Virus record (IMG/VR): IMGVR_UViG_3300042889_002648 | Location: 1-64,000 of that record | DNA from: a virus | Length of the DNA: 64,000 bases | Reading direction: 5' to 3' (one strand) | Shown: positions 12,941 to 54,784 of the stretch, piece after piece | How positions within the stretch are numbered: position 1 is the stretch's first letter | Layout of the letters: each line of letters begins with the position of its first letter | Notes under the pieces: model-generated | The model's database searches: none | Seen by the model: the letters and a program-made list of their open reading frames with translations, nothing else | Told to the model about the DNA's origin: nothing | Translations under genes and position numbers: made by a program

Positions 12941-13002
12941 AAATTTATATATCGATGTTATTAAATTACATTAAAGAAGAAGAACAACGCAATAAGAAAT
13001 GA
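12826..13002 (+). CDS. 51: gp51-like frameshift extension (-1 frame of gp26)
   Basis: 58 codons read after slippage, starting RLALSHDSLTNYYQTNF and ending at TGA 13000-13002, which overlaps the tape-measure ATG. The segment YSLSELETMLPWEREIY followed by a helix and KEEEQRNKK resembles the second half of tail assembly chaperones just upstream of tape measures. The only internal ATG (12883) has no Shine-Dalgarno, so independent translation is less likely. The predicted fusion is 293 aa (235 + 58), analogous to lambda gpGT. Confidence 0.75.
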   Translation, partial: RLALSHDSLTNYYQTNFSLMQHHKYSLSELETMLPWEREIYISMLLNYIKEEEQRNKK

Positions 13003-24661: not shown

Positions 24662-24741
24662 TGGCGCCCTGAAGAGGACTCGAACCTCCATTGACTCCGA
24701 TTACGGTACTACTGCTTAGAAGGCAGTTCCGGTATCAGGGC
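24662..24741 (-). tRNA. tRNA-Arg(UCU), aberrant D region
   Basis: Acceptor GCCCTGA/TCAGGGC, discriminator G, encoded CCA. Anticodon arm ACTGC-CTTCTAA-GCAGT gives UCU. T arm GGAGG-TTCGAGT-CCTCT is normal. Only 7 nt lie between acceptor and anticodon arm, so a D arm is missing, while the variable region is enlarged (21 nt). Confidence 0.7.
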
Positions 24742-24746
24742 AAAAT

Positions 24747-24833
24747 TGGTACCAATGGTGGGACTCGAACCCACACGCCCATAAGGACAACGGATTTTAA
24801 ATCCGCGACGTCTACCAATTCCGCCACATTGGC
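24747..24833 (-). tRNA. tRNA-Leu(UAA)
   Basis: Acceptor GCCAATG/CATTGGT with encoded CCA, Leu-type D arm (GGCGGAATTGGTAGACG), anticodon arm CGGAT-TTAAAAT-CCG region giving UAA, and a long variable arm. Regular class II tRNA. Confidence 0.93.
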
Positions 24834-24841
24834 ATGTGTTT

Positions 24842-24849
24842 TATTTATA
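24842..24849 (-). promoter_or_regulatory. Late promoter box before tRNA-Leu(UAA)
   Basis: TATAAATA followed by A on the minus strand, 8 nt before the tRNA 5' end. Confidence 0.5.
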
Positions 24850-25090
24850 GCGACTTTAGCAACTCTACAATGAAAAGATCCGTTTCTGTTGCATCACGTT
24901 TAAGTTCATCGGTTGACCATGTATGAGAACTAGTATATGTCTGTGTAACATATACTTTGTCATCACTAATAAAGTGTGAACAACTCCAATCATAACCACA
25001 TTTTTTAAGTGCAGTATAAAATGATTCACGAGCAATTCGCATTCGTTCAGACTCTCCAATTTCAACAATTATTTCTCCTTTAATTTTCAT
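24845..25090 (-). CDS. Small hypothetical protein
   Basis: 81 aa: EIIVEIGESERMRIARESFY, then GYDWSCSHFISDDKVYVTQT and a helical end TETDLFIVELLKSL. An alpha-beta mix with no recognised family. It ends 6 bp after a basic repeat protein gene and before the two tRNAs. Confidence 0.55.
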   Translation of the reverse strand: MKIKGEIIVEIGESERMRIARESFYTALKKCGYDWSCSHFISDDKVYVTQTYTSSHTWSTDELKRDATETDLFIVELLKSL

Positions 25091-25096
25091 AATCTT

Positions 25097-25489
25097 TTAT
25101 TCACATTTACGTCCAACATAATCGCCTACAAATGTAGGAGAATCGCCATCATCAAATTCCAATATACGCTCACCAGCGTTTAGCTGTAATGGCAGTGCAG
25201 CCGCATCTTTCAGCGACATTTTCTTTGCACGCTTAGCGGCACGAGGCGCTTTTTTAGCAGCTCTTTCATTTCGCTTAGCTACCGCTGCTTTGAGTCGTTC
25301 AAGGTGTGCTGCTTTCTTAAGCTTAACTCCTTTGACCTTTGCTGCTTTTTTAGCAGCTCTTTCATTTCGCTTGGTTACAGCTGCTTTAAGGCGTTCACGA
25401 CGTGCTGCTTTTTTAATTGCAATTGCCTTCTTTTTTTCGAGCTGTTCTGCCTTACGAGCAGCAGCTGTTTTTGATTTGATTTCCTTCAT
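25097..25489 (-). CDS. Lys/Arg/Ala-rich repeat protein, histone-like
   Basis: 130 aa from MKEIKSKTAAARKAEQLEKK (25489); the upstream in-frame Met falls just after the promoter. Two copies of ERLKAAV(T/A)KRNERAAKKA (about 28-45 and 60-77) form a strongly basic, helical body like histone H1-type tails. The last 35 residues are acidic/neutral (ILEFDDGDSPTFVGDY). It probably binds DNA or RNA. An early promoter at 25508-25536 drives it. Confidence 0.65.
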   Translation of the reverse strand: MKEIKSKTAAARKAEQLEKKKAIAIKKAARRERLKAAVTKRNERAAKKAAKVKGVKLKKAAHLERLKAAVAKRNERAAKKAPRAAKRAKKMSLKDAAALPLQLNAGERILEFDDGDSPTFVGDYVGRKCE

Positions 25490-25507
25490 AGTATTGGTTA
25501 CGTGATT

Positions 25508-25536
25508 ATTATACACTAAAAAAGCACACTTGTAAA
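25508..25536 (-). promoter_or_regulatory. Sigma70-like early promoter, basic protein
   Basis: TTTACA (25531-25536) - 17 nt - TATAAT (25508-25513) in the extended TAGTGTATAATAATC form, 18 nt before the ATG at 25489. Confidence 0.82.
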
Positions 25537-25562
25537 ACTAAAAATGAAGAAAAATGCATTTT

Positions 25563-27302
25563 TTATGATTTTTTTACGATTCGATCCATAAATGATGGTG
25601 AAAATAAGGTCTTATTGCTGCTGATAAACCCTTCGGCACGGCTGTCAAGAATGTATGTTATGCTCCAATCATCAGCGGAACGTGTTGTTCGTCCGCATGC
25701 TTGCTCGAGTGTTGATGCAGCTTCTCCTACATAAACATGATATGCAGTTTCATACCGCTTAGCGTTTAATGCACTACCCATGCTAGGATACGATATTTTC
25801 ACGATGATGTTAAAGCGCGCAGCATCACCTGATAGGTCAATTCCTGTTGTCAAGCTAGGTCCAATAAGAACCGCATCAGGCGCGCTATTATCCCAATCAC
25901 TAAGTATGCTCATCTTTTCAACGGTGCCACGATATGGTACAAGCCTAAAGTAATGTCGTGATTCACGTGCGATCCTATCCATAATAACATTACTTGTGGT
26001 GTGTATACAACCGCGTACACCTTTGTGTTCATCAAGTATACGATCAATCTCAGCAATGCATGCAGCCAATCCTTCATCCTGATTCTTATATGTTAGGTTA
26101 GCAACATCAAGACATACAATTGGACTGCGGCGACGATCCCAAGCGCTAGGTAAATTAAACACAACACTCTTTTCCTGTTCGCAGCCAAACCGCTGTATAA
26201 GCAGATGAGGTTGTAAGGTAGCGGACATATAGATTCTTACCTTGGAAAATTTCTTAAAGTGTCGCTGAAATAAGTGCGCATCATTAAGGTTATGATAACG
26301 CATTGCACCATCTTGCGAACCGTCAACCACCATGCAATCATCGCCTGCTTCACTTATGATAGCTATATAATCTTCTACTTTACAATGGCGATCTTTAACG
26401 CCATCGCCCAATCGGAATAGCATTTTCACTTCACGCGGCAGCTTGTTCATTTGTTTTTTAAGCTTAGCAACATCTGCTTCATCAGCATCAAATAGTCGTG
26501 ATATTGTACCACCAATAAGTGTCGTTATTTGTTTCTTTAGCTCGCGTAATGAGCCTTCATATTCTGTTAATGCTTTTAAGTGAGCCTGTTTATCTTGACT
26601 GTTAGAGAGTCTAAATACCTTTCGTATTGCAGCTTCAACATCACGATATTGTATTTCTTCATAGTGAGCTGCAGACAGCATCATGTTTGTATTGCGCAGC
26701 CGCTCGATATAATCTAGCTCGACAGTGCATGCAAAATGATCTTCAATAATGTCAGGCAGCTTATGCGCTTCATCGCATATTACAAGATCACGTGGATGAA
26801 ATGGTGGATTAGCTCCAGATTCGCTCATCTTCTCGTAAACATAATTCATTTGCAGCAAGTAATAGCTGTAGTTAAAGATTGCGCGTGGACTCGCTTGTGC
26901 CGCAAGCCAACGCTGTAGGTATTCACAATTCTTTGCACACGGCATGCTTAGCGCCTCGCTGTTTGTCTTGCGCATAATCTTACACAATCCTAATGAGAAC
27001 TTTTCGCCATTCACGTGGCACTTATATGTATCAACGCCACAAACACTGGCAGCATCTCCATGAACATCACTATACTTTATGGTGTCTTCTTCATATTGTG
27101 CTTGCAGTGATTTTTCACTTGTCAATAAGTATGACAGCATGTTATGTTCTTGTGCTGCTCTCTTTGCGGTTTCTAGTGCAAGCAATCCTTTGCCACTACC
27201 TGTAGGTGCGCAAATAAAAATGTCGGTCTTGCCTTTGGCTATTGCGTCAAAGATTGCCTCAACTGTTGCAAGCTGCAACGGGCGGTATTCGAGTTTATGC
27301 AT
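25563..27302 (-). CDS. XPD/DinG-like superfamily 2 helicase with Fe-S cysteines
   Basis: 579 aa. Walker A APTGSGKGLLALETAKRA (about 30-47), DEAH box ICDEAHKLPD, and a C-terminal helicase motif CGRTTRSADDWSITYI. Four cysteines between motifs Ia and II (YKCHVNG, LGLCKIM, MPCAKNCEYLQ) are placed like the 4Fe-4S cluster of XPD and DinG. It probably unwinds DNA forks or R-loops during repair or replication. The early promoter lies 6 nt from the ATG, predicting a leaderless mRNA. Confidence 0.85.
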   Translation of the reverse strand: MHKLEYRPLQLATVEAIFDAIAKGKTDIFICAPTGSGKGLLALETAKRAAQEHNMLSYLLTSEKSLQAQYEEDTIKYSDVHGDAASVCGVDTYKCHVNGEKFSLGLCKIMRKTNSEALSMPCAKNCEYLQRWLAAQASPRAIFNYSYYLLQMNYVYEKMSESGANPPFHPRDLVICDEAHKLPDIIEDHFACTVELDYIERLRNTNMMLSAAHYEEIQYRDVEAAIRKVFRLSNSQDKQAHLKALTEYEGSLRELKKQITTLIGGTISRLFDADEADVAKLKKQMNKLPREVKMLFRLGDGVKDRHCKVEDYIAIISEAGDDCMVVDGSQDGAMRYHNLNDAHLFQRHFKKFSKVRIYMSATLQPHLLIQRFGCEQEKSVVFNLPSAWDRRRSPIVCLDVANLTYKNQDEGLAACIAEIDRILDEHKGVRGCIHTTSNVIMDRIARESRHYFRLVPYRGTVEKMSILSDWDNSAPDAVLIGPSLTTGIDLSGDAARFNIIVKISYPSMGSALNAKRYETAYHVYVGEAASTLEQACGRTTRSADDWSITYILDSRAEGFISSNKTLFSPSFMDRIVKKS

Positions 27303-27308
27303 AAAATT

Positions 27309-27336
27309 ATTATAACATAAACTAGAAGAATGTAAA
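27309..27336 (-). promoter_or_regulatory. Sigma70-like early promoter, Fe-S helicase
   Basis: TTTACA (27331-27336) - 16 nt - TATAAT (27309-27314). The -10 box ends 6 nt before the helicase ATG. Confidence 0.75.
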
Positions 27337-27344
27337 TAAAAAAG

Positions 27345-27626
27345 TTACTTTTCGTGCAAGATATCAATAATACGCTTTTCTTCAGCCTTTAATGTTTCAT
27401 ATTCAACTCCTAGTTTTTTAGAGTCGGTATTAACTTTAAAAATACCATTGCTTGTCTCAAAGCCACCGCGATCTTCAATTTGAGATACGAGTTCTTTAAG
27501 ACGTAGTTTAATCTTAACCAATCGTGAACCATATTCGCGCTTATCGGCGCTGTCTAGCGATTCGTTAATCATAGTGATTTCTTCAGGCGTAAAATAACTC
27601 CAAGATTTAGTAGATGACTCGCTCAT
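27345..27626 (-). CDS. Small helical protein, function unknown
   Basis: 93 aa, helical and charged: SWSYFTPEEITMINESLDSA and KIKLRLKELVSQIEDRGG, ending EEKRIIDILHEK. A coiled-coil is likely. It follows the ligase-NMNAT gene by 10 bp and is probably co-transcribed with it. Confidence 0.55.
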   Translation of the reverse strand: MSESSTKSWSYFTPEEITMINESLDSADKREYGSRLVKIKLRLKELVSQIEDRGGFETSNGIFKVNTDSKKLGVEYETLKAEEKRIIDILHEK

Positions 27627-27636
27627 ACCATATTAT

Positions 27637-29106
27637 TTATTTTATTTTCATGCCAACTCGCACTGCATCAAACAGCGCAGTTGTATCTTTAAAGCTGCTT
27701 GGCACACCTTTTTTAAATGTTGCCATATCATTTGCTTTTGCAGCATCTCGCAATTTTGTTGAACTCATACCTGTTGCATCATCAGAGTCAGGATCGCGTT
27801 CAGTGTTACTTACAACAGTAATACCGTCAACAAAATGATACTTATTGCTGCCGTTATAACGATTTAGGAGTTCTGTAAATCCTTCAACACGGTCACTGCC
27901 ACATACAAGTGTTAATGCAGTATAACCTTTCTTATGTAGGTATACCACAGCATTAAGAACTGTTTTGATGTTAGGATCCTCTACAATATTCTTTGCATAC
28001 TTTGGAAAAATCTTACGTAAAAAATCCATCTTAACTTCATAAGGCAACGGATTCTTTTTGGGATCTTGTGTTTGTGAAGAAAAGATTAGAAACTTTCGTC
28101 CAGCAGCAACCTGCTCTAGTTTCTTAAAGAGGCTTTCGTGTCCAGTATTTGGTGGCTGAAAACGTCCAAACACCATTACTATTTCTTTCTTTTGTGCTTC
28201 AGCCAAACGATCTTTAACCTTACTTGCTTTGAATGCTGGAGTAGTTACTTTAATATCTCTCCCGTTTATGGTAAGTACCAATCCTTCAATTTCAGGACCT
28301 AGCTTAAACTTATCAAGGATTGACTCGTGATCCAATATGTATTCTGCAACTTCATCTTTAACACTCTGTATAATTGCACGTAGGTTTGCCTTAGCTTCAC
28401 GATCATCTCGCTTAAGCGATTTTAGAGTCTCTTTAGCTTCTTTGCCCAAGCTAAGAATAGGATCAATCATGCCAGAGATATCAATGTCGCCTTTCATTGA
28501 AAGCGAAGGACTCATGACGCGTATGCGTTCATTTGAAGTGGCTATAATATCAGAAAGTATTCTCTCTTCATCTGGATGCGGAGCACCGTTGGAAGAATAT
28601 ACAACAGCATGCGGAAATAGTGTTAGGTGCGAGCCCAACTTATTCTTATCATACTTTACAGTTACAAATGTAATACCATCATCATCCAATGCTGCCATCG
28701 GATTATAGAAAATTTCTGTAATAACTTTAACATCATTTGGTACAGCCTTCATTGCAGCCGAACTCATGATGTCATCAAACAAGTTATCATATTGCTGTGC
28801 TCTTAGGAGTGTCTCACCAGATGAGCCGCGTCCTTGTGCATATGTTGAGAATGCGCCACGATCAAAGACTGGTCCGCTGCGTGAACTCTCAAAAAACGGT
28901 TTGCCGTTTGCGTCGCGTCCAAAGCGTGCACCCAATCCATCAATCTTTAATGCAACCTTTAGGTTCTTTAGCTTGCCCCGCATTGCACCTGATATGCTGC
29001 GTACAAATTCAATAAATTCAAGGTCGTTCATCTTTTGCAGATGCAACATATTTTGACGCGTTGTAGCGACAACCTCTTCAGTTAAGTATCTTTTAAATGA
29101 TAACAT
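27637..29106 (-). CDS. Ligase-like adenylyltransferase fused to NMN adenylyltransferase, with capsid-targeting N-terminus
   Basis: 489 aa from MLSFKRYLTEE (29106), which directly follows the upstream stop at 29108. Residues 1-10 match the T4 internal-protein targeting signal with an LTE cleavage site. Residues about 35-285 resemble a DNA/RNA ligase nucleotidyltransferase domain: KIDG (motif I lysine), EIEGLVLTI (motif IV) and a late Lys in AFKASK (motif V). Residues 300-489 are an NMNAT-type domain: MVFGRFQPPNTGHESLF (HxGH-like), LVCGSDRVEG and MSSTKLRDAA. It could join or cap RNA ends and make NAD. Packaging is inference. Confidence 0.75.
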   Translation of the reverse strand: MLSFKRYLTEEVVATTRQNMLHLQKMNDLEFIEFVRSISGAMRGKLKNLKVALKIDGLGARFGRDANGKPFFESSRSGPVFDRGAFSTYAQGRGSSGETLLRAQQYDNLFDDIMSSAAMKAVPNDVKVITEIFYNPMAALDDDGITFVTVKYDKNKLGSHLTLFPHAVVYSSNGAPHPDEERILSDIIATSNERIRVMSPSLSMKGDIDISGMIDPILSLGKEAKETLKSLKRDDREAKANLRAIIQSVKDEVAEYILDHESILDKFKLGPEIEGLVLTINGRDIKVTTPAFKASKVKDRLAEAQKKEIVMVFGRFQPPNTGHESLFKKLEQVAAGRKFLIFSSQTQDPKKNPLPYEVKMDFLRKIFPKYAKNIVEDPNIKTVLNAVVYLHKKGYTALTLVCGSDRVEGFTELLNRYNGSNKYHFVDGITVVSNTERDPDSDDATGMSSTKLRDAAKANDMATFKKGVPSSFKDTTALFDAVRVGMKIK

Positions 29107-29107
29107 T

Positions 29108-30208
29108 TTATTTGTATCCTTTGTAATATTCTGCACGCATATCATCAATAGCAGCACGGTCATATTGTGCTCCAATGATTTCGGTAAGTTTTAAGAATGC
29201 TGCCATCTTTTCGGCATTATCTCGTTCAGCATCACCACGATATAATCCTTGTGCGCCTTTTTCAAATAATATATTTGCAAATGCATTGATTAATCGTGTT
29301 TGTTCTGCTGGTGCAATATATTTCTTAATGAGTTCCGCTGCGCCAATAAACGAATCCATCATCTTCATATCCGCATCTGATGGCGTACGCTCAAAGAGTA
29401 CTTTAAAGATAACTTTAAGATCCGTAATATATGTTGATTCACTTGTTGGTATTTCACGATAGACATATAATCCATCCTGCATCATGTGTTTACCTACGCC
29501 ATCTAGGACTGGTGCTATTTTGGTGCGCAATCCATGCTGTACACTAAATGCAAGATCAGATGCTTTAATTTTCGTAGGTGTTTCTTTCTTACCTTTAAGA
29601 ATGATAATATCACGCAGTGTTTTTGCAGATGCTGCTCTCATAATGTATTTATGAAACACACCTTTAATACCTGCTGTAATATCATTCCATGCAGATGAAT
29701 GCGAGAACATGCTCCATGCTGTTGGTTTGCCATAAGCAAAGTCAACAAGTTCCATATCTACTTGAATGTTAATGCCAAACTCTGGGAAAGCCCAAAGCGT
29801 AATATATTGCCCCGCGCTTTTCTTAAATCCAATGAGTGAAGCATCACCAAAAGTTTTACCAGTTATGGCTTTAAGAAACTCGCCAAGGTTTTCATCTTGT
29901 ATCTTATCAACCTGAGTATCTACATCGCCTACTGTATTCTTATACTTAGTAAATTCGGCTGTAGGAATTGCGCGGTTAAAAAAGTGGAATGCGCTGCCGC
30001 TAAGAAACTCCTTGCTCTTAAAGAGTTCGCCACTCCATAATGGTAGTCCATACTTTTTCTTGTATGCTTTGTTAACTGCATCTAGTGTGCGGTCAATTTG
30101 CACCGTTACACTATCACGGTTAATCTTTGTTAGGTCAATGCGATCTGCACCTTGGTCGCCCAACATTAAATTTCCGCCTTCAAGAATATATTGTTTAAAT
30201 GATTTCAT
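29108..30208 (-). CDS. Pol-beta-type nucleotidyltransferase, predicted capsid-targeted
   Basis: 366 aa. N-terminus MKSFKQYILE-G fits the T4 internal-protein signal (cleavage after ILE). FLSGSAFHFFN followed by NTVGDVDTQVDK gives the hG[GS]...DxD signature of the Pol-beta superfamily; a third carboxylate is in NIQVDMELVDF. This superfamily includes CCA-adding enzymes, kanamycin nucleotidyltransferases and toxins. It is the upstream partner of the ligase-NMNAT gene (1-bp gap), and a tRNA array lies beside it. Confidence 0.68.
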   Translation of the reverse strand: MKSFKQYILEGGNLMLGDQGADRIDLTKINRDSVTVQIDRTLDAVNKAYKKKYGLPLWSGELFKSKEFLSGSAFHFFNRAIPTAEFTKYKNTVGDVDTQVDKIQDENLGEFLKAITGKTFGDASLIGFKKSAGQYITLWAFPEFGINIQVDMELVDFAYGKPTAWSMFSHSSAWNDITAGIKGVFHKYIMRAASAKTLRDIIILKGKKETPTKIKASDLAFSVQHGLRTKIAPVLDGVGKHMMQDGLYVYREIPTSESTYITDLKVIFKVLFERTPSDADMKMMDSFIGAAELIKKYIAPAEQTRLINAFANILFEKGAQGLYRGDAERDNAEKMAAFLKLTEIIGAQYDRAAIDDMRAEYYKGYK

Positions 30209-30244
30209 GTGATTTTGTAGCCAATAACTTTACTCGTAATAATC

Positions 30245-30252
30245 TATTTATA
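30245..30252 (-). promoter_or_regulatory. Late promoter box, nucleotidyltransferase/ligase pair
   Basis: TATAAATA followed by G, 36 nt before the ATG at 30208; it separates the pair from the tRNA array. Confidence 0.6.
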
Positions 30253-30268
30253 ATAGATGCAACTTAAA

Positions 30269-30357
30269 TGGCGGAAGCAGAGGGACTCGAACCCCCGAGG
30301 GCTTTATAGGCCCCAGCTGTTTTCAAGACAGTGTCCTCGACCAGCCGGACTACTTCC
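30269..30357 (-). tRNA. tRNA-Ser(UGA)
   Basis: Acceptor GGAAGTA/TGCTTCC region, anticodon arm CTGTC-TTGAAAA-CAG giving UGA, long variable arm and encoded CCA. Class II. Confidence 0.93.
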
Positions 30358-30366
30358 ATAAAATTT

Positions 30367-30443
30367 TGGTACACAGGGTGGGACTCGAACCCACAAAACC
30401 TTGCTTCTAAGGCAAGTACGTAAACCAATTCCGTCACCTGTGC
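30367..30443 (-). tRNA. tRNA-Leu(UAG), short variable loop
   Basis: Acceptor GCACAGG/CCTGTGT, anticodon arm CTTGC-CTTAGAA-GCAAG (UAG), encoded CCA. The D arm is Leu-like, but the variable region is only GTTTT instead of the long arm usual for tRNA-Leu. Confidence 0.85.
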
Positions 30444-30445
30444 AT

Positions 30446-30765
30446 TGGTGGAGACGACGGGAGTTGAACCCGTGTCCATGACGTGTGCGATTATACAATC
30501 TACAACTTATTCTCATTTATTCAGACGAGACTCTTAGACACTTATCGTTGTGTCACGACAGCGTTATTCACAATGCTGTACAAATAGATACCGTTCGTGG
30601 TATCAACTATCCTATGCCGTGCGAATGACAATATAGGAGTCATGTCATTCGACTCACTTAAGCAGCGAGAGCAAGTGTATTTTTGCCGTTTAGTTTTTTG
30701 ACGAAGGGAGTCACCCGTGTGTTGCAATATAATCTCTCATGTCATGTCGAAACCATGACATCCCC
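30446..30765 (-). ncRNA. ssrA: Transfer-messenger RNA (tmRNA)
   Basis: 320 nt. The 5' end GGGGATGTCATGGTTTCGAC and 3' end GGGTTCAACTCCCGTCGTCT then CCACCA are the tmRNA tRNA-like domain; acceptor GGGGATG pairs with CGTCTCC. The tag frame reads GGC at 30685-30687 to TAA at 30658-30660: GKNTLALAA, ending like bacterial degradation tags (-LAA). Between them lie stems consistent with pseudoknots. Phage tmRNAs could free stalled ribosomes or retarget host proteolysis. It sits inside the tRNA array. Confidence 0.93.
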
Positions 30766-30772
30766 ATTAAAA

Positions 30773-31336
30773 TTAATTATTTCGATTTTTCCAAACTTTT
30801 GCCGCGCGGAAAAGATGTGCTCCAACTTCATCATGCAGACGATCATCAAATCCCATTCCACCAAACCCGCCATAAATCATATAGTTTGATAGTGTGAAAA
30901 ACAATTCTTCCAATTCATCTTCATCTATATCTTCTGCAGCTGCCATTATTTTACGAACAAGTGGATATGTTGGAGTTTTAAGAGCTTCATCAATTGTTTC
31001 TTCAACAAGATCTACTTTCTGATTTTTTTCAAAAGGAACTACGGTTGTATAGTTTCCAGCTTTTACACGTATGTTTACCAGTTTCCCAGGATGAGTTTTT
31101 GAATCCATTGCGTCATCTGTCGCAATAACAGTATATGCTTTTGAGATGTCTACACCTTTTCCTGGGATTTTTAGATTTGCTTTAAAAGAGTCGCCCTTCT
31201 TAATGTCTTTTGCAATTTTAGTGTTGGACATTTCTTGGAGCTCAACTGTTTCATCTAATTGAGTGCATCCTGTTAAGATCTTTGTGGCCGCAGCTATAAG
31301 CGGATCGTTTTTAATGTTTGTGAAGTTTTCTTTCAT
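30773..31336 (-). CDS. Hypothetical protein, paralogue N-terminus of the next gene
   Basis: 187 aa. N-terminus KENFTNIKNDPLIAAATKIL closely matches that of 31345-31635, then TQLDE-T gives an LxE site near residue 29. The middle (about 40-110) is a beta domain (GDSFKANLKIPGKGVDISKA). The C-terminus is helical with FTLSNYMIYGGFGGMGF. The shared leader may direct both proteins to the prohead. Function unknown. Confidence 0.6.
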   Translation of the reverse strand: MKENFTNIKNDPLIAAATKILTGCTQLDETVELQEMSNTKIAKDIKKGDSFKANLKIPGKGVDISKAYTVIATDDAMDSKTHPGKLVNIRVKAGNYTTVVPFEKNQKVDLVEETIDEALKTPTYPLVRKIMAAAEDIDEDELEELFFTLSNYMIYGGFGGMGFDDRLHDEVGAHLFRAAKVWKNRNN

Positions 31337-31344
31337 ATCTGTAT

Positions 31345-31635
31345 TTATTTATTTGGTCTTTTAGAAAAACGTTCTGCTGCTTTTTTAAGAAATAGCGCAG
31401 TTTCAATATAATCATCATCTCCGTCGCGTTGGCCATTCCATTGAGTCATATATTCAAGACCATATAACAAATCTTCAAATTCCTTGGCGTCAAGCTTTGT
31501 AATTCCAGATAGTAATTTAACTGCAGCTGGTGTTTTTGCTATACGTGAATCAGCTTCATGCAATTGACTGCCTATGATTTTTGCGGCGGCGGCTACAAGC
31601 GGATCGTTTTTAATGTTTGTAAAGTTTTCAGTCAT
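31345..31635 (-). CDS. Hypothetical protein, predicted prohead-associated
   Basis: 96 aa. N-terminus TENFTNIKNDPLVAAAAKII is shared with the 187-aa neighbour and followed by SQLHE-A (LxE site). The helical C-terminal part ends FLKKAAERFSKRPNK, like the end of its neighbour. A late box lies 13 nt upstream. Probably a duplicated pair. Confidence 0.6.
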   Translation of the reverse strand: MTENFTNIKNDPLVAAAAKIIGSQLHEADSRIAKTPAAVKLLSGITKLDAKEFEDLLYGLEYMTQWNGQRDGDDDYIETALFLKKAAERFSKRPNK

Positions 31636-31648
31636 ATTGTTATTTATC

Positions 31649-31656
31649 TATTTATA
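31649..31656 (-). promoter_or_regulatory. T4-type late promoter box
   Basis: TATAAATA followed by G, 13 nt before the ATG at 31635, between this gene and tRNA-Gln. Confidence 0.65.
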
Positions 31657-31661
31657 AAAAT

Positions 31662-31734
31662 TGGTAGCCCATGCTGGTATCGAACCAACTTCTCACGGGT
31701 CAAAGCCGTGTGCATTACCTTTATGCTAATGGGC
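31662..31734 (-). tRNA. tRNA-Gln(UUG)
   Basis: Acceptor GCCCATT/CATGGGC region, anticodon arm CACGG-CTTTGAC-CCGTG (UUG), T loop TTCGATA, encoded CCA. Confidence 0.92.
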
Positions 31735-31737
31735 AAT

Positions 31738-31812
31738 TGGAGTTGCGTGTGTGAATCGAACACACCAAGACGAGATTTGCAATCTCGCGCCTAACCATTT
31801 GGCTTACGCAAC
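31738..31812 (-). tRNA. tRNA-Cys(GCA)
   Basis: Acceptor GTTGCGT/ACGCAAC, anticodon arm CGAGA-TTGCAAA-TCTCG (GCA), encoded CCA. Confidence 0.93.
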
Positions 31813-31817
31813 AAAAA

Positions 31818-31907
31818 TGGCGGAGACAGCAGGATTTGAACCTGCGCAACCGATCAAGGTTGACTACTGTTTAGCAAACAGCTACATTACCACTCTGTCA
31901 TATCTCC
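31818..31907 (-). tRNA. tRNA-Ser(GCU)
   Basis: Acceptor GGAGATA/TGTCTCC, anticodon arm GCTGT-TTGCTAA-ACAGT (GCU), long variable arm, encoded CCA. Confidence 0.93.
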
Positions 31908-31910
31908 GTA

Positions 31911-31984
31911 TGGTAAGGGATGAAGGTAACGCTCCCTCGTATATTGCGTGTAAAGCAATCGTTCTACTTTTGAACTAATCCCCC
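31911..31984 (-). tRNA. tRNA-Val(UAC), unusual T loop
   Basis: Acceptor GGGGGAT/ATCCCTT, D stem GTTC/GAAC, anticodon arm ATTGC-TTTACAC-GCAAT (UAC), encoded CCA. The T arm GAGGG/CCTTC carries loop AGCGTTA instead of TTCRANY. Confidence 0.85.
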
Positions 31985-32000
31985 ATTATAAAAATTTGAA

Positions 32001-32056
32001 GGCCCGTTAACATCAACACTTTGGAGATATTGACATGCGAGTTCAACCGACGGGCC
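32001..32056 (-). ncRNA. tRNA-like stem element, unassigned
   Basis: A perfect 7-bp terminal stem GGCCCGT/ACGGGCC closes 42 nt. An inner pairing CATGTCAA with TTGATG is possible. It is too short for a tRNA and no CCA follows. The rest of 31985-32152 shows nothing else recognisable. Confidence 0.35.
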
Positions 32057-32152
32057 AAGCGGTTTAGACACCCTCTCGCAAAAATGGTGCACTCTCAATT
32101 CATCAGTTTATTATATATTATGTACATTTATTTTAAATTATATAATACAAAA

Positions 32153-32227
32153 TGGTGGCCTGTTGAGGAATCGAACCTCAATTTGGAGTTTCGTAAACTC
32201 TCGTCTTATCCATTGGACCAACAGGCC
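32153..32227 (-). tRNA. tRNA-Arg(ACG)
   Basis: Acceptor GGCCTGT/ACAGGCC, anticodon loop TTACGAA (ACG), T arm TGAGG-TTCGATT-CCTCA, encoded CCA. It lies 5 bp after the end of the HNH gene. Confidence 0.9.
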
Positions 32228-32232
32228 TTTTT

Positions 32233-33006
32233 TTATTTATGTCTTCCAAATTTCCATCCATCAGGAGGTAATTCATTTTTTTCAATACGTGCAGATTTTG
32301 TTCCATTGTTAATCCAAACAGTATCAACACTTGAAAATTTCATATTACCAGAATCAATTTGTTTACGCATTCGAATTTTAGCCGAATCAGAAAGTTTTTT
32401 TCTAGTTTTTTTATCTAGTGTTTTACCTTTTCTATTTTTTATTTTTAATAAATGAAGACATTCAGATGAGCACGTTTTATATGTCTTAGAACATTTAAGC
32501 TTTAAAAAAGTACAATTACATATAACACATGTAAAAATTATTTCTATATTTTTCCACTTATTTCTTCCTAAAATCCATCCTTCTGGTATTTTGTCTTCTT
32601 TTAATATTTTTTTATTTTCTTGTAATTCAATATTGCACATCCAACGAGTTCCATATTGTGAATTGCACTCACCACTTTGAGAAATTTTCATACGTTTTGA
32701 TGCCAATTTAGAGTGATGTTTTCGAATTTCTTCATACAGACGAGAATTCTTAATATAGGATATACTGCGCTCTTCACATCGCATCGCCATCATATGGCAT
32801 GCATGAATTGTTTGACTATTCTTATGAATCTTATAAAGAAGGATGTGGGCGATCCAATGTTCTCTTCCAGTTAAAACTACTAGATTAGAAGTATCATCAG
32901 ATCCGCCCATTGATTTCATCAAGATATGGTGCTTTTCAGTATATCCAGTTGCCGGATTATTTTGTCGATATGAAATTAGATTATCGTAAATACGTTGGTA
33001 GTTCAT
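32233..33006 (-). CDS. HNH homing endonuclease inserted in a tRNA gene
   Basis: 257 aa from MNYQRIYDNL (33006). HNH core: TEKHHILMKSMGGSDDTSNL then VVLTGREHWIAHILL. Four Cys (CVICNC, CSSEC) suggest a zinc site at about 185-215. Two W-x-x-GR repeats (GWILGRNKW, GWKFGRHK) look like small DNA-binding modules. Its AT-richness and 5' junction inside a tRNA-Arg(ACG) mark it as a mobile insertion. The late box lies 5 nt before the ATG. Confidence 0.85.
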   Translation of the reverse strand: MNYQRIYDNLISYRQNNPATGYTEKHHILMKSMGGSDDTSNLVVLTGREHWIAHILLYKIHKNSQTIHACHMMAMRCEERSISYIKNSRLYEEIRKHHSKLASKRMKISQSGECNSQYGTRWMCNIELQENKKILKEDKIPEGWILGRNKWKNIEIIFTCVICNCTFLKLKCSKTYKTCSSECLHLLKIKNRKGKTLDKKTRKKLSDSAKIRMRKQIDSGNMKFSSVDTVWINNGTKSARIEKNELPPDGWKFGRHK

Positions 33007-33011
33007 AAATG

Positions 33012-33019
33012 TATTTATA
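33012..33019 (-). promoter_or_regulatory. T4-type late promoter box, HNH gene
   Basis: TATAAATA, 5 nt before the ATG at 33006 and 16 nt after the broken tRNA. Confidence 0.65.
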
Positions 33020-33034
33020 CAAATGTGAACTTTA

Positions 33035-33093
33035 CGAACCCCGGACCTCACGGTTCGTAGCCGTGTGCTCTGATCCAGCTGAGCTAAGAGTGC
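33035..33093 (-). pseudogene. Truncated tRNA-Arg(ACG)
   Basis: Acceptor 5' strand GCACTCT, normal D arm, anticodon arm CACGG-CTACGAA-CCGTG (ACG) and the start of the T arm up to GGTTCG. The 3' part, including the acceptor partner AGAGTGC, is missing and replaced by the HNH promoter region. Confidence 0.88.
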
Positions 33094-33095
33094 AT

Positions 33096-33120
33096 AAAAA
33101 AAAGACTGCAAGATGCAGCC
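33096..33120 (-). terminator. Terminator after the 33151-33843 gene
   Basis: A 7-bp stem GGCTGCA/TGCAGTC with a 3-nt loop followed by eight U on the minus strand. It lies between the protein gene and the truncated tRNA. Confidence 0.8.
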
Positions 33121-33150
33121 TCTTTCCGTTAAAGTTATTCTTGTTAAGAT

Positions 33151-33843
33151 TTAAAATTTTGCGGCAACTTGTACTGCTTTAGCAATATCTTTGAATTTAT
33201 TGTTATCATCTGCTTTAATTAGCACACCTTCAGAACTAAATGAAGAATATTTTGACCAAGGCGTACTGCCATCACCTGTGTTTATGAGACCAGATGGTAA
33301 CTTGACAAATCTCTTTGCACCATCTTTATAAACTACGCAACCAGAACCACAATAGATCATGTCATTAACTGGCTGACCGTTTACTGCTTCAGCATCTTTA
33401 TTATTTGCTTTAAGACCGCCGTCAATCATTGGCTCGCCAATACGATCTTCATTTGCAGCTAAAAAGCTATCATAATTGTGTGGTCCCTTTTTAGTCCAAA
33501 CTGTAATATTTGGATCAGATTGGCCACTTGCTTCGTGTAGCCCAGGCATTGCCAAAATAGCTTTCTTAAGATCACCAAGTTTAACCTTAGCACTAAAACC
33601 ATCTTTATCAATTAATCCACCCTTTACAGTCTTGTCTTTATATACAAGTTCGGAACCGTCAAAGTAAAGATTTTTTGAACCGCCAGTAGCAGCTTTAATC
33701 TTTGGATCCTTCACAAGATGCGTAATGATTTCAGTTTCACTCTCAAAGTCAGAGAGTGTTGAAGCGTCATTGAGTGTATATTCTTTCACTGCTGCTTCAG
33801 ATAGCAAGAAATTCTTTGCGATGTTAATTAGACCGTCTTTCAT
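33151..33843 (-). CDS. Hypothetical protein with possible prohead-protease site
   Basis: 230 aa from MKDGLINIAKNFLLSE-A (33843); LSE at residue 14-16 fits (L/I)xE. The body is beta/loop-rich with Gly (GGLKANNKDAEAVNGQPV, YCGSGCVVYKDGAKRF) and ends in a helix. It is a late gene (TATAAATA at 33858-33865) inserted between tRNA blocks. No family is recognised. Confidence 0.6.
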   Translation of the reverse strand: MKDGLINIAKNFLLSEAAVKEYTLNDASTLSDFESETEIITHLVKDPKIKAATGGSKNLYFDGSELVYKDKTVKGGLIDKDGFSAKVKLGDLKKAILAMPGLHEASGQSDPNITVWTKKGPHNYDSFLAANEDRIGEPMIDGGLKANNKDAEAVNGQPVNDMIYCGSGCVVYKDGAKRFVKLPSGLINTGDGSTPWSKYSSFSSEGVLIKADDNNKFKDIAKAVQVAAKF

Positions 33844-33857
33844 AATAGTTATATGTT

Positions 33858-33865
33858 TATTTATA
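33858..33865 (-). promoter_or_regulatory. T4-type late promoter box
   Basis: TATAAATA followed by A, 14 nt before the ATG at 33843. Confidence 0.65.
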
Positions 33866-33877
33866 ATAATTGATTTT

Positions 33878-33953
33878 TGGCACGGAGAGTGAGAATCGAA
33901 CTCACCCAACAAGATTTGGAGTCTCGTTCGCCAGCCTTGGGACATGCCTCCGC
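33878..33953 (-). tRNA. tRNA-Trp(CCA)
   Basis: Acceptor GCGGAGG/TCTCCGT, anticodon arm CGAGA-CTCCAAA-TCTTG (CCA), T loop TTCGATT, encoded CCA end. Confidence 0.9.
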
Positions 33954-33974
33954 ATAATCATATTTATAATAAAA

Positions 33975-34051
33975 TGGTACGCCCACTCGGATTCTAACCG
34001 AGGATCTATCCATTATGAGTGGATTGCTTTGGAACGCTAAGCTATAGGCGT
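33975..34051 (-). tRNA. tRNA-Met-type (CAU), first copy
   Basis: Acceptor ACGCCTA/TGGGCGT, anticodon arm ATCCA-CTCATAA-TGGAT (CAU), T loop TTAGAAT, encoded CCA. It could be elongator Met or Ile-2 (lysidine). Confidence 0.85.
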
Positions 34052-34061
34052 ATTTGAAAAT

Positions 34062-34141
34062 TGGTACTCCTGATGGGGGATTGAACCCATGACCTCCCAC
34101 TTATAAGGCGGGTGCTCTGACCACGACTGAGCTACAGGAGC
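34062..34141 (-). tRNA. tRNA-Ile(UAU)
   Basis: Acceptor GCTCCTG/CAGGAGT, anticodon arm CCCGC-CTTATAA-GTGGG (UAU), encoded CCA. Confidence 0.9.
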
Positions 34142-34145
34142 ATTA

Positions 34146-34220
34146 TGGTCCACACTGACCGTAACGATCGGTCCTCTCAAGATTTTCAGTCTTGTGCTAA
34201 TCCATCTCAGCTAAGTGTGG
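34146..34220 (-). tRNA. tRNA-Phe(GAA), unusual T loop
   Basis: Acceptor CCACACT/AGTGTGG, anticodon arm CAAGA-CTGAAAA-TCTTG (GAA), T arm GACCG-ATCGTTA-CGGTC, encoded CCA. Confidence 0.87.
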
Positions 34221-34227
34221 AGAAAGT

Positions 34228-34302
34228 TGGTAGACGTTCTGGGTAATGCTCCCAGTTCTCATGGTTAAAAGCCATGTGCTTCACTATTAAAGCTTAACGT
34301 CC
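34228..34302 (-). tRNA. tRNA-Lys(UUU), unusual T loop
   Basis: Acceptor GGACGTT/AACGTCT, anticodon arm CATGG-CTTTTAA-CCATG (UUU), T arm CTGGG-AGCATTA-CCCAG, encoded CCA. Confidence 0.87.
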
Positions 34303-34306
34303 GTTA

Positions 34307-34383
34307 TGGTACGACTAGAAGGATTTGAACCTTCGACCCCAGCTTTATCAAAGCTGTGCTCTGACCATCTGAGCTATAGTCGT
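34307..34383 (-). tRNA. tRNA-Ile(GAU)
   Basis: Acceptor ACGACTA/TAGTCGT, anticodon arm CAGCT-TTGATAA-AGCTG (GAU), T loop TTCAAAT, encoded CCA. Confidence 0.92.
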
Positions 34384-34393
34384 ATTAAAAAAG

Positions 34394-34466
34394 TGGAGAT
34401 GACAGAACTCGAATCTGCAACATCCTGCGTGCAAGGCAAGCGCTCTACCAATTGAGCTACATCCCC
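34394..34466 (-). tRNA. tRNA-Ala(UGC), CCA not encoded
   Basis: Acceptor GGGGATG/CATCTCC, anticodon arm CTTGC-CTTGCAC-GCAGG (UGC), discriminator A followed by CTT, so the CCA end must be added. Confidence 0.9.
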
Positions 34467-34475
34467 TTTGAAGTT

Positions 34476-34554
34476 TGGTGGTTGTGATAGGATTTGAACC
34501 TATATACTTAGACTTATGAAATCTACTTCTTACCAAGTCGAAATTCACACAACC
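34476..34554 (-). tRNA. tRNA-Met-type (CAU), second copy
   Basis: Acceptor GGTTGTG/CACAACC, anticodon arm TAGAT-TTCATAA-GTCTA (CAU), T loop TTCAAAT, encoded CCA. Confidence 0.87.
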
Positions 34555-34562
34555 ATTGAAAA

Positions 34563-34640
34563 TGGTCAGAGAGGCAGGATTTGAACCTGCGTTGTTCCTA
34601 GTTCCAAACTAGGTGTGTTAGACCGCTCCACCACCCTCTG
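34563..34640 (-). tRNA. tRNA-Pro(UGG)
   Basis: Acceptor CAGAGGG/CTCTCTG, anticodon arm CCTAG-TTTGGAA-CTAGG (UGG), T loop TTCAAAT, encoded CCA. Confidence 0.92.
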
Positions 34641-34653
34641 ATAAAAATTAAGT

Positions 34654-34737
34654 TGAAACACTTCTGCAAGATATACATACTCTTCGTCCGAAGACTTCAG
34701 CCATCACGCTGGTGGAAGAGCCCGTCCCTATGTTTCA
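34654..34737 (-). ncRNA. Structured RNA with acceptor-like stem, not a normal tRNA
   Basis: A 7-bp terminal stem TGAAACA/TGTTTCA encloses a strong hairpin TCTTC-GGAC-GAAGA. No T arm or usable anticodon arm precedes the 3' strand, and no CCA is encoded. Confidence 0.5.
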
Positions 34738-34760
34738 TGAGCCCGTTTAGGTAAATTAGA

Positions 34761-34833
34761 ACTAGACTGTAGATTGAAGCCTACACTTCTCACGTACTGT
34801 CGTGAGGTCCTTAACGCTTAGACGAAGTCTAGT
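34761..34833 (-). ncRNA. tRNA-like cloverleaf with 8-nt loops, unassigned
   Basis: 73 nt. Acceptor ACTAGAC/GTCTAGT is perfect. The arm in anticodon position is CTCAC-GACAGTAC-GTGAG and lacks U33. The T-position arm is TGTAG-GCTTCAAT-CTACA. Both loops have 8 nt. No CCA is encoded. Confidence 0.5.
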
Positions 34834-34837
34834 AAAT

Positions 34838-35000
34838 TGGATGACACACGCTGAAGTTTGAGAGGCAGAAATTTGTTCAAGTATCCGGTCTTGTCGAGAT
34901 ATTGTTTTGTTTCGGTCTAAAAGACTTACTCCGTAAATCCGCACTCGCAGTCACCCTCTCTTATGGTCTCGTAAATTACATCAGCTAGACCGTCTGTGTC
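34838..35000 (-). ncRNA. Multi-stem structured RNA ending in CCA
   Basis: A terminal stem GACACA/TGTGTC closes about 150 nt and is followed by ATCCA. Inside are GGTCT/AGACC and GAGAGG/CCTCTC stems. Its size is twice a tRNA. No known RNA family is recognised. Confidence 0.45.
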
Positions 35001-35005
35001 AAAAT

Positions 35006-35079
35006 TGGTACGCCATGTGGGAGTCGAACCCACGCCTCGAACTTGGAAGGATCACGTGCTACCGTAACACTTATAGCGC
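35006..35079 (-). tRNA. tRNA-Gly(UCC)
   Basis: Acceptor GCGCTAT/ATGGCGT, anticodon loop CTTCCAA (UCC) on a stem with one mismatch, T loop TTCGACT, encoded CCA. Confidence 0.87.
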
Positions 35080-35088
35080 TTTTGAAAA

Positions 35089-35164
35089 TGGCTCCCGAGG
35101 CACGACTCGAACGTGCAACATCTGAGTTAACAGCTCAGCGCATCTACCATTGAGCTACTCGGGA
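35089..35164 (-). tRNA. tRNA-Asn(GUU)
   Basis: Acceptor TCCCGAG/CTCGGGA, anticodon arm CTGAG-CTGTTAA-CTCAG (GUU), T loop TTCGAGT, encoded CCA. Confidence 0.93.
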
Positions 35165-35173
35165 GTTGAAAAT

Positions 35174-35338
35174 TGGTATGTCCATAGCATTGCGGCCTAC
35201 GACTCACTTAGGACTGAAGCTAGCTACTGAAGATCGTAGCGATCTTTAATTATGATACACTGACATTATCTTCAGCACGGAATTTCAAGCCTGTATGCAT
35301 ACACATATGCACCTAACTCACCGAATAGTATCATAATT
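35174..35338 (-). ncRNA. Structured RNA with 11-bp inverted repeat, unassigned
   Basis: Occupies one unit of the array between two spacers and ends GGACATACCA. An 11-bp inverted repeat pairs 35248-35258 with 35328-35338. A second hairpin pairs AAGATCG with CGATCTT around 35230-35246. No standard T or anticodon arm is in place. It may be two RNAs. Confidence 0.45.
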
Positions 35339-35343
35339 GAAAT

Positions 35344-35420
35344 TGGAGCCTCCTATCCGACTTGAACGGATAACCTGCTCATTACAAATGAGCTGCTACT
35401 GCCAATTGAGCTAAGGAGGC
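35344..35420 (-). tRNA. tRNA-Thr(UGU)
   Basis: Acceptor GCCTCCT/AGGAGGC, anticodon arm GCTCA-TTTGTAA-TGAGC (UGU), T loop TTCAAGT, encoded CCA. Confidence 0.93.
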
Positions 35421-35436
35421 ATTAAAGAAAGTGGAT

Positions 35437-35526
35437 TTGAGCAGTCAGGTTGTCATCCTGATAGTGACTAGCCAGAGAATGGAGGAGTTGAACCTCCTTT
35501 TACTTAGTCCGAGTTCTCGCTGCTCA
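35437..35526 (-). ncRNA. tRNA-like RNA: class II tRNA-Leu(CAA) or permuted tRNA
   Basis: Terminal stem TGAGCAG/CTGCTCA. A canonical T-arm sequence, GGAGG-TTCAACT-CCTCC, lies in the middle. An anticodon-like hairpin TCAGG-ATGACAA-CCTGA lies just before the 3' strand. Read in order, the middle arm would be an anticodon arm with CAA (Leu); read by motif, the arms are permuted. CCA is not encoded. Confidence 0.45.
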
Positions 35527-35530
35527 AAAA

Positions 35531-35605
35531 TGGTCCGCGGTCATGGACTTGCACCATATTCGCTGCCGTCACAAGGCAGGACATTACTACATATGCTAAC
35601 CTCGG
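35531..35605 (-). tRNA. tRNA-His(GUG)
   Basis: Anticodon arm CTGCC-TTGTGAC-GGCAG (GUG). Acceptor CCGAGGT/ACCGCGG has one A-G mismatch. T loop TGCAAGT deviates by one base. CCA is encoded. Confidence 0.85.
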
Positions 35606-35612
35606 AATAAAA

Positions 35613-35701
35613 TGGTGTACGCGGTTGGAATCGAACCAACGATGTTTCTGATGAGCAGGGTTACAGTCTGCCGCCACACAACCAACAGTAGCCTCACGTA
35701 C
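35613..35701 (-). tRNA. tRNA-Tyr(GUA)
   Basis: Acceptor GTACGTG/CGCGTAC, anticodon loop CTGTAAC (GUA), long variable arm, T loop TTCGATT, encoded CCA. Confidence 0.9.
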
Positions 35702-35711
35702 TTTTGAAAAT

Positions 35712-35786
35712 TGGTACTGCCACGGGGAGTTGAACCCCGCTCTAATGGTTGAAAACCATTTGTCCTAACCGATAGACGATGGCAGC
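35712..35786 (-). tRNA. tRNA-Glu(UUC)
   Basis: Acceptor GCTGCCA/TGGCAGT, anticodon arm AATGG-TTTTCAA-CCATT (UUC), T arm CGGGG-TTCAACT-CCCCG, encoded CCA. Confidence 0.92.
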
Positions 35787-35800
35787 GTTGGAAAATTAGA

Positions 35801-35935
35801 TGAACATCAAGCGAAGCAAAATACGGAATCGAACCGTCCCTCCCGTTTTCACGACGGGCGCGCAAGCCATTACACAATAATTGCCATCTTTGACTCAAGG
35901 CCTGCAAGCCTCTCTTCTCAGAGTCTCGATGTTCA
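35801..35935 (-). ncRNA. Structured RNA containing a tRNA-like core
   Basis: An 8-bp outer stem TGAACATC/GATGTTCA encloses 119 nt. Within it are an arm CCCGT-CGTGAAA-ACGGG (no U33) and a T-arm-like ACGG-TTCGATT-CCGT, but the acceptor halves next to them do not pair well. No CCA follows. Confidence 0.45.
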
Positions 35936-35962
35936 CTTAACGAGAGTTGCAGCTCTCAAAAT

Positions 35963-36041
35963 TGGTCTCCTAGGTGAGAGTCGAACTCACAATATCACCG
36001 CCCCTTGAAGGCAGTCGCTTTGCCAGTTTGCGTACACGGAG
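35963..36041 (-). tRNA. tRNA-Leu(CAA)-like, mismatched acceptor
   Basis: Anticodon arm CTGCC-TTCAAGG-GGCGG (CAA), T arm GTGAG-TTCGACT-CTCAC, discriminator A and CCA. Acceptor CTCCGTG/CTAGGAG has two mismatches and the variable region is short, so function is uncertain. Confidence 0.6.
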
Positions 36042-36045
36042 GATT

Positions 36046-36176
36046 GAAAAATTGTACGGTGTTTTCTTTGGATTCAGATCACCGAAATTCTGAATAATCA
36101 TTGCATTCGTAATAGCTGCAGCGTTAACCACAGTTACAATAGTAACGAAATTAGTACTGCCACGGGGGAGTTGAAA
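36046..36176 (-). ncRNA. Structured segment with a tRNA-Glu-like 3' fragment
   Basis: TTTCAACTCCCCCGTGGCAG then TACTA resembles the 3' end of the tRNA-Glu at 35712 with changes, so it may be a decayed copy. The remainder has hairpins GTTAC-TATT-GTAAC and ATTCAGA/TCTGAAT. No complete tRNA is visible. Confidence 0.35.
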
Positions 36177-36243
36177 TGGGAGTGTACGCAGAACCTTCTA
36201 CTGCAACATGGGTTTGTAAGCCACTATCAACGCACGATACACT
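36177..36243 (-). ncRNA. Short tRNA-like RNA (67 nt) with encoded CCA
   Basis: Acceptor AGTGTAT/GTACACT is perfect, discriminator C, CCA encoded. The loop CTTACAAAC on a GTGG/CCAT stem would give UAC (Val). There is no recognisable D arm, and the T-position arm has loop AGAAGGT. Confidence 0.45.
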
Positions 36244-36287
36244 GGCATGCTGTTGGTATTCTCTCAATATGAATATTGAGATTAAAT

Positions 36288-36362
36288 TGGTTGCGGCGGG
36301 TGGGATTCGAACCCACGTGCACGGCTTATGAGACCGTTGAGTTACCTCTACTCTACCCCGCG
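36288..36362 (-). tRNA. Initiator tRNA-fMet(CAU)
   Basis: CGCGGGG at the 5' end with 3' CGCAACCA gives the C1-A72 mismatch that marks bacterial initiator tRNA. Anticodon arm ACGGT-CTCATAA-GCCGT (CAU), T loop TTCGAAT, encoded CCA. Confidence 0.85.
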
Positions 36363-36861: not shown

Positions 36862-37515
36862 TTATGAGTCTTTCTTAGATTTTTTGGCAGTCTTAGGAGT
36901 AGGCTGTGGTGCCGCTGAGGCAGCTTCTGCAGCCTCACGTGCTGCAGTGCGTGCCTCAAGACGTGTCATTACTTCGGCTGCAGTCATCCAAATGTCACGG
37001 TCTTCAATCATATCTTTAATTTCAGCTTCACTCAAGAAGTCCGTATACATATCCTTAAAGAGACGTTCACTCCATCCACGCTCGTGAATTAAGCAGCTAT
37101 ACATCTCGCCACCTTTGCCCATTGTTTGTGAGCTATAGTTGTGAAACAAGAATACACTATGATCAGTAATCATATATTCATCTGCCATAAGGAAGATAAG
37201 AGTTGCTGCGCTCATGCATGCTCCTTCAACACTTGCAATGATATGCGCTTCCGTTTCAGATAGTGCTTGTAAGAATTGAATGGTTGTAAAGATGTTACCG
37301 CCTGGGCAATTAATGTGAAGTTTAATTACATCAGTTGGGCGGCTATTACGTATATCATGAAACCAATCAACATATTCTGATGGGTCACCAATAGTATCAC
37401 TAAGGTAATATTCCTTTACTGCTCCATAGTCATTTGCATATGAATGCGTATTGTCAGGTTTGAATAGTTTGCCGAATAGTTCGGCGTTATTTTTATTTTT
37501 ATTATTTTTATGCAT
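36862..37515 (-). CDS. ClpP-like serine protease
   Basis: 217 aa from the Met at 37515 (8-bp overlap with the upstream gene; a Met at 37545 would overlap by 38 bp). Motifs: INCPGGNIFTTIQFLQAL, catalytic Ser in VEGACMSAATLIFLMAD, and catalytic His in VFLFHNYSS. The C-terminal 40 residues are Ala/Lys-rich (EAAEAASAAPQPTPKTAKK), unlike cellular ClpP. Phage ClpP-like enzymes process head proteins or act with host Clp ATPases; which applies here is open. Confidence 0.87.
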   Translation of the reverse strand: MHKNNKNKNNAELFGKLFKPDNTHSYANDYGAVKEYYLSDTIGDPSEYVDWFHDIRNSRPTDVIKLHINCPGGNIFTTIQFLQALSETEAHIIASVEGACMSAATLIFLMADEYMITDHSVFLFHNYSSQTMGKGGEMYSCLIHERGWSERLFKDMYTDFLSEAEIKDMIEDRDIWMTAAEVMTRLEARTAAREAAEAASAAPQPTPKTAKKSKKDS

Positions 37516-38209
37516 GTCCGAATAGTTTACTTTTATTGTATTCATTTATTGTATCTATCAACCCAGGAACCCAGGTGTCTCTCTTCTCAACAAAAACGAG
37601 AGGCTCTGTTGAATTTTCAACGGCCATAAGTATTACTAGTTGTGGCACAGGTATACCAGTGCGTTCTTCAAACATGATTGCATATGCTGCAGCCTGCATG
37701 AAATAGCTCTGTATATGATCACGTGTCTTTACACGAGAGCTTGTCTTAAAGTCAACAATACTATGTTTACCATTAAATTTTGCAACAAGATCCACACGAC
37801 CTGCAACGCCAAGATGATTGCTATAAAGAGGACATTCTTGTAGCACAACTTCATCAATGTTTGCGTCAATGATAGTTTGTATTGCGCCAAACATACCCTT
37901 CACGTGAGGCATTTCTTGAGGATCAAAATAGTGCTCTTCATTATTAAGATAACGCTCTGCAATGGTATGCATTGCAGTACCACGTGTTGCAGCATGCCGC
38001 ATAACACGATTTGCTTCTTCTTCGCCTACACGTGCGCGCCATTCACGTATACCATCCTTGCTAAGTACACTTAATACTGTTGTAATGCTAGGATAACGAC
38101 GTCCGTCTGGTGTAACATATTGGCGTCCAGTTTTTCCAGTGACTGCATCAAGATCGTCATAATCTAGCTTAACAGGAGTGTGCTTGAAACATTTGCGAGC
38201 TATCTTCAT
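37508..38209 (-). CDS. PD-(D/E)XK exonuclease (RecB/Cas4-like)
   Basis: 233 aa from MKIARKCFKH (38209), whose ATG overlaps the stop of the 50-residue gene. Nuclease motifs: RGTAMHTIAERYL (His), GVAGRVDLVAKF (Asp), HSIVDFKTSSRVK (D-x-K), IQSYFMQAAAYA (Gln-Tyr motif). It probably degrades or processes DNA ends during recombination; T4 gp46/47 were not found in this window. Confidence 0.87.
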   Translation of the reverse strand: MKIARKCFKHTPVKLDYDDLDAVTGKTGRQYVTPDGRRYPSITTVLSVLSKDGIREWRARVGEEEANRVMRHAATRGTAMHTIAERYLNNEEHYFDPQEMPHVKGMFGAIQTIIDANIDEVVLQECPLYSNHLGVAGRVDLVAKFNGKHSIVDFKTSSRVKTRDHIQSYFMQAAAYAIMFEERTGIPVPQLVILMAVENSTEPLVFVEKRDTWVPGLIDTINEYNKSKLFGHA

Positions 38210-54765: not shown

Positions 54766-54784
54766 AAAATCTGTAGTATGATAT

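Follow-up and report, generated by a model that had tools for sequence, protein, structure and literature searches.

The window, a 64,000-base stretch of a 100,774-base IMG/VR virus record (a 100.8-kb fragment), carries a one-piece tmRNA gene (ssrA) of 320 nt with an encoded CCA end on the minus strand at 30446–30765. The earlier note had placed a tmRNA with the tag GKNTLALAA here, and its coordinates proved exact. ARAGORN calls the gene with this tag and a coding part at RNA 79–108 (RNA position p corresponds to window position 30766−p), and the covariance-model search that the note had asked for gives a match to Rfam RF00023 on the identical span, at 93.8 bits (gathering score 47 bits; E = 3e-35 in 64 kb) and over the full model (1–374 of 374). 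The minimum free energy of the RNA is lower than that of all 100 dinucleotide shuffles (z = −2.5). The model of the permuted two-piece tmRNA, RF01849 (alpha_tmRNA), reaches at best 14.9 bits in record G000, below its cut-off of 50. ARAGORN also proposes a 'tmRNA*' at 30173–30538 with the tag GAYKALGGSSPSASAI, which we judged spurious: it spans the 3′ end of the real tmRNA plus two tRNAs and is without Rfam support.

The tmRNA lies within a minus-strand cluster of more than 25 tRNA genes. A tRNA-Leu(tag) called by ARAGORN in the same cluster (30367–30443, minus strand) begins 2 nt past its 3′ end, and a 187-aa open reading frame with no assigned function (30773–31336, minus strand) ends 7 nt ahead of its 5′ end; this cluster position and the 7-nt and 2-nt spacing suggest that the tmRNA is processed from a transcript common with its neighbours. 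Across 24665–36361 (minus strand), tRNA genes for 19 of the 20 amino acids are present in the window, Asp not being seen, and the Val(tac), Lys(ttt) and Arg(tct) tRNAs among them are not called by ARAGORN at default settings. A homing endonuclease reading frame (32233–33111) also sits among the tRNA genes.

The phage carries T4-like genes, including those for baseplate gp6, UvsX, gp41/DnaB and RNR. Judged by its gp6, the closest isolate is Methylophilales phage Melnitz, which is filed under Kyanoviridae and shares 34% identity in this protein. The DnaB/gp41 replicative helicase (53169–55975, minus strand) appears to be split by a split intein, with the helicase and an intein N part at 54797–55975, an HNH-like reading frame at 53704–54765 and a probable intein C part with the helicase end at 53169–53717, resembling the known 'fractured gene' arrangement. 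A 560-aa reading frame with weak tape-measure similarity (12999–14681, plus strand) runs opposite to nearly all other genes.

RNA structure and tag frame

All elements of the RNA described here lie on the minus strand. Both ends are complete and joined by an acceptor stem, as the earlier note had read them. The 5′ arm GGGGAUG (30759–30765) forms 7 of 7 pairs with the 3′ arm CGUCUCC (30450–30456), which is followed by ACCA, so that CCA is encoded at 30448–30446. The third pair is a G–U (G3–U70, alanine identity), with G3 in the 5′ arm, and is retained as G–U in L065-type homologues; tmRNAs conserve this pair without exception, and alanyl-tRNA synthetase reads it as an identity signal (PMC3985003). 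The T arm (ACGGG-UUCAACU-CCCGU, 30457–30473) has 5 of 5 pairs and shows a compensatory change in the L065 group. Helix 2 joins 30721–30746 to 30477–30506 through 20 pairs (6+7+7) and displays a G–C > G–U > A–U series inside the L065 group. Helix 5 (30653–30669; RNA 97–113) holds the stop codon of the tag in its loop.

The earlier note had made loss of the pseudoknots a test of its reading. PK2 (30610–30651; RNA 115–156) is kept, with 9 + 6 pairs (CGAAUGACA/UGUCAUUCG and UCCUAU/AUAGGA); it is better than 60 of 60 dinucleotide shuffles in each of eight phage tmRNAs tested, and its arms in homologues have different bases that are still complementary, covarying between lineages. PK1 (30699–30716; RNA 50–67) is weaker. 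Its stems, GGG/CCC at RNA 50–52/58–60 and UGAC/GUCA at 53–56/64–67, are short and are matched by 5 of 60 dinucleotide shuffles, which is not significant by itself; L065 has the identical topology built from other bases (AGUC/GACU and UGCAC/GUGCA). At the PK3 position only a hairpin is seen (GAUACC/GGUAUC, 30587–30604; RNA 162–179), with two adjacent double compensatory changes relative to L241. A probable last pseudoknot (ACAGC/GCUGU and UUGUG/CACAA, 30548–30579; RNA 187–218) has the same first stem in L058–L060 and a second stem that is different but complementary. As 9–10 of 60 shuffles equal PK3/PK4, these are not distinguishable from chance on the window sequence by itself; because shuffles match them and PK1, all are assigned by comparison with homologues only.

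The tag frame, GKNTLALAA followed by UAA (30658–30687), is the one called by ARAGORN and brings together a resume codon, a stop and a hydrophobic Ala-Ala end. The resume codon is GGC at 30687–30685 (RNA 79–81), just as had been predicted. It is preceded by CUAAAC, a putative resume signal with UA at −5/−4 as in E. coli; the L065 group retains only the A at −4. The string GKNTLALAA had no occurrence in the literature searched.

Conservation among relatives

The same tmRNA is present in three near-identical contigs. We defined the wider clade by relatives of the window's ClpP-like gene (~70% identity), and all clade contigs of at least 43 kb that were searched (G003, G005, G011, G020, G030 and G032) carry a tmRNA above cut-off, as do several shorter ones; G035 (41 kb) stops inside the gene, 32 nt of which are present (L232). 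The window RNA shares ~61% identity or less with the L065 and L058 groups. The tags of these relatives are GNNTLALAA (L241), EKDTLALAA (L065 group, frame by alignment) and GKNKTVVNSGLALAA, GKNNNVVDSGLALAA and GKNNVVDSGLALAA (L058–L060). For L068 and L069, the tags given by ARAGORN (AREKRKRY...) were replaced by the aligned frame EKDTLALAA.

Across the window, L241, the L065 and L058 groups and the unrelated L061/L070, all differences in the five final codons (LALAA) are synonymous. Between the window and L241, all changed bases in the scored stems keep pairing, including three double changes (the T-arm double change depends on gap placement). Bases of the acceptor stem, the T stem, PK1 and the PK2 arms vary between lineages with complementarity kept. 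The gene is intact, and the covariation of paired bases together with the synonymous-only changes in LALAA is evidence for a tmRNA that is probably working and selected, not a remnant. The earlier proposal that the LAA end forms a ClpXP-type degron is likewise well supported, as a prediction, by the RNA structure, by the covariation and by the synonymous-only changes in the last tag codons.

These patterns bear on the possibility that the phage does not use the gene but carries it as a passenger, having picked up a host ssrA at an integration site. Authors have raised this for Melnitz and Panino, ssrA being a common integration site (PMC9004378, PMC11590407). Yet no tyrosine integrase was found in five records (G000, G011, G020, G030 and G074), the gene set is that of a T4-like virulent phage, the tmRNA lies within a large tRNA cluster, and an unused gene sits poorly with stems that change in a compensatory way and a tag end whose codons vary only synonymously from lineage to lineage. 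We consider a passenger very unlikely.

Several other phage tmRNAs came to light. L061, L070 and L071 have a different tmRNA (51–54% identical) with the identical tag GKNTLALAA, and no gp6 homologue is detectable in these contigs. The tmRNAs of L070 and L071 lack an encoded CCA (ending in ACTG) and have a distorted T arm; decay of phage tmRNAs therefore does occur. L241, the close relative of the window tmRNA, has a T stem of apparently 6 bp and was missed by ARAGORN. In L172 (1501–1962), a phage tmRNA has a frame open for ~35 codons (AENNTADILAEAEYIFNNADEVLASYADEELLLAA), of which ARAGORN gives the last 9 residues only. Finally, circularly permuted alpha-type tmRNAs score above cut-off in four records (L202–L205) from T4-like, wider virion-protein relatives, so tmRNA architecture varies among related phages; among these more distant relatives, the function seems to have been kept or regained while the gene differs.

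The ClpP-like gene and proposed function

A gene for a ClpP-like serine protease lies ~6 kb from the tmRNA at 36862–37545 (minus strand). It matches PF00574 at 33.4 bits (cut-off 20.2) and phrog_1827, its best PHROGs match is a phage ATP-dependent protease family, and the predicted Ser112/His135/Asp184 of its product align to the triad of solved ClpPs. Against the housekeeping ClpP models of NCBIfam it scores 20–24 bits, below their cut-offs of 228–347, and its best NCBIfam match, also below cut-off, is to ClpP-related head maturation proteases. Homologues of ClpP are present in 1620 phage records of GenBank.

The earlier note had paired this gene with the tmRNA. The gene itself is real; a functional link is not supported, because none of 14 sampled, diverse ClpP-carrying GenBank phages has a tmRNA over cut-off in a search for the one-piece type. 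Under such a link, the phage tmRNA would tag proteins for a protease containing the phage's ClpP-like subunit, whose predicted catalytic triad fits the idea, as does the occurrence of both genes in the window and throughout one clade of phages. Co-inheritance accounts for that joint presence in one clade, however, and by score the gene is closer to head-maturation relatives than to housekeeping ClpP. Moreover, no Clp ATPase (AAA_2) was detected in four records, the window record included. We therefore regard such a pair as very unlikely, and equally so a tag-and-degrade system of the phage's own that would clear selected host proteins or truncated phage proteins from the infected cell.

Within its tRNA cluster, this T4-like (Kyanoviridae-related) phage very probably has a working ssrA gene. 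From what is known of the family, we infer the following course for its expression, charging, tagging and degradation and for its benefit to the phage. The tmRNA would be transcribed together with the adjoining tRNAs, trimmed at its 5′ end and alanylated by the host synthetase through G3–U70. Host SmpB and EF-Tu would bind it, and it would enter ribosomes stalled on broken mRNAs. Translation would switch to GGC, add A-GKNTLALAA and stop at UAA, freeing the ribosome, and the tagged product would be degraded by host ClpXP/ClpAP via its LAA end. In addition to the missing Clp ATPase and integrase, SmpB was not found in the records tested, so host SmpB, AlaRS, EF-Tu and Clp proteases would be needed. 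The phage tmRNA might supplement or replace that of the host in infection, as the tRNAs of the cluster would host tRNAs. As the earlier note suggested, the gene may exist to free ribosomes that stall when host mRNA decays.

The phage RNA could instead act as a decoy that binds SmpB or ribosomes and inhibits host trans-translation, as proposed for the TLD-only tmRNA of mycobacteriophage DS6A. A molecule consisting of the TLD only inhibits tmRNA, perhaps by titrating SmpB (PMC4131195). The window gene, however, retains its entire mRNA-like part with a putative resume signal, the tag and the stop, and a decoy has no need of the peptide-level conservation seen at the tag end; we consider a decoy very unlikely.

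Comparison with known tmRNAs

Phage tmRNAs are already known, and the window gene is one more example, ordinary in itself. They were counted in 402 of 18,146 phage genomes (~2.3%; PMC9004378) and have been described in mycobacteriophages and phage G (PMC4131195), phage Panino (PMC11590407), Bradyrhizobium phages (PMC12656738) and huge phages, for which SmpB has been reported as well (PMC7162821). What the window adds is a clade of uncultivated T4-like phages in which selection appears to maintain an intact tmRNA whose tag varies at its beginning but not at its degron end. With this clade it becomes possible to test why virulent phages carry ribosome rescue of their own.

Like bacterial one-piece tmRNAs (RF00023), the window RNA has a tRNA-like domain with G3–U70 and CCA, helix 2, a probable PK1, a tag frame, helix 5, PK2 and a tag ending in LAA. 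It differs from them in being shorter, in its weak PK1, PK3 and PK4, in its GGC resume codon, in its place in a phage tRNA cluster and in a tag without the SspB-type AANDENY start. Clostridia tmRNAs with the tags GKNKVALAA (Ruminococcus MAGs) and GKNKTNFALAA (Family XIII MAG) share the GKN...ALAA pattern and the GGC resume codon, whereas the remaining RNA differs. A genome scan for GKN...ALAA tags returned 17 matches. ARAGORN recognises five of them as tmRNAs, four in Clostridia-type MAGs and one in BRH_c32, an unclassified bacterium, and the tag begins with GKN in just three of the five. As a route to the host by tmRNA similarity, these matches gave no host and do not mark the Clostridia concerned as hosts.

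Among phages, ssrA has likewise been reported in the genomes of Bxz1, Cali, Catera, Wildcat, Bacillus phage G, Maribacter phage Panino, Felix O1 and B. elkanii phages, all from families other than that of the window phage, and DNA similarity between the window tmRNA and GenBank phages is limited to ~30 bp in the T arm. Melnitz (PMC9004378) offers a tmRNA in a T4-like phage; its tmRNA is in two pieces, is circularly permuted and stands under a glutamine riboswitch, whereas that of the window is one-piece.
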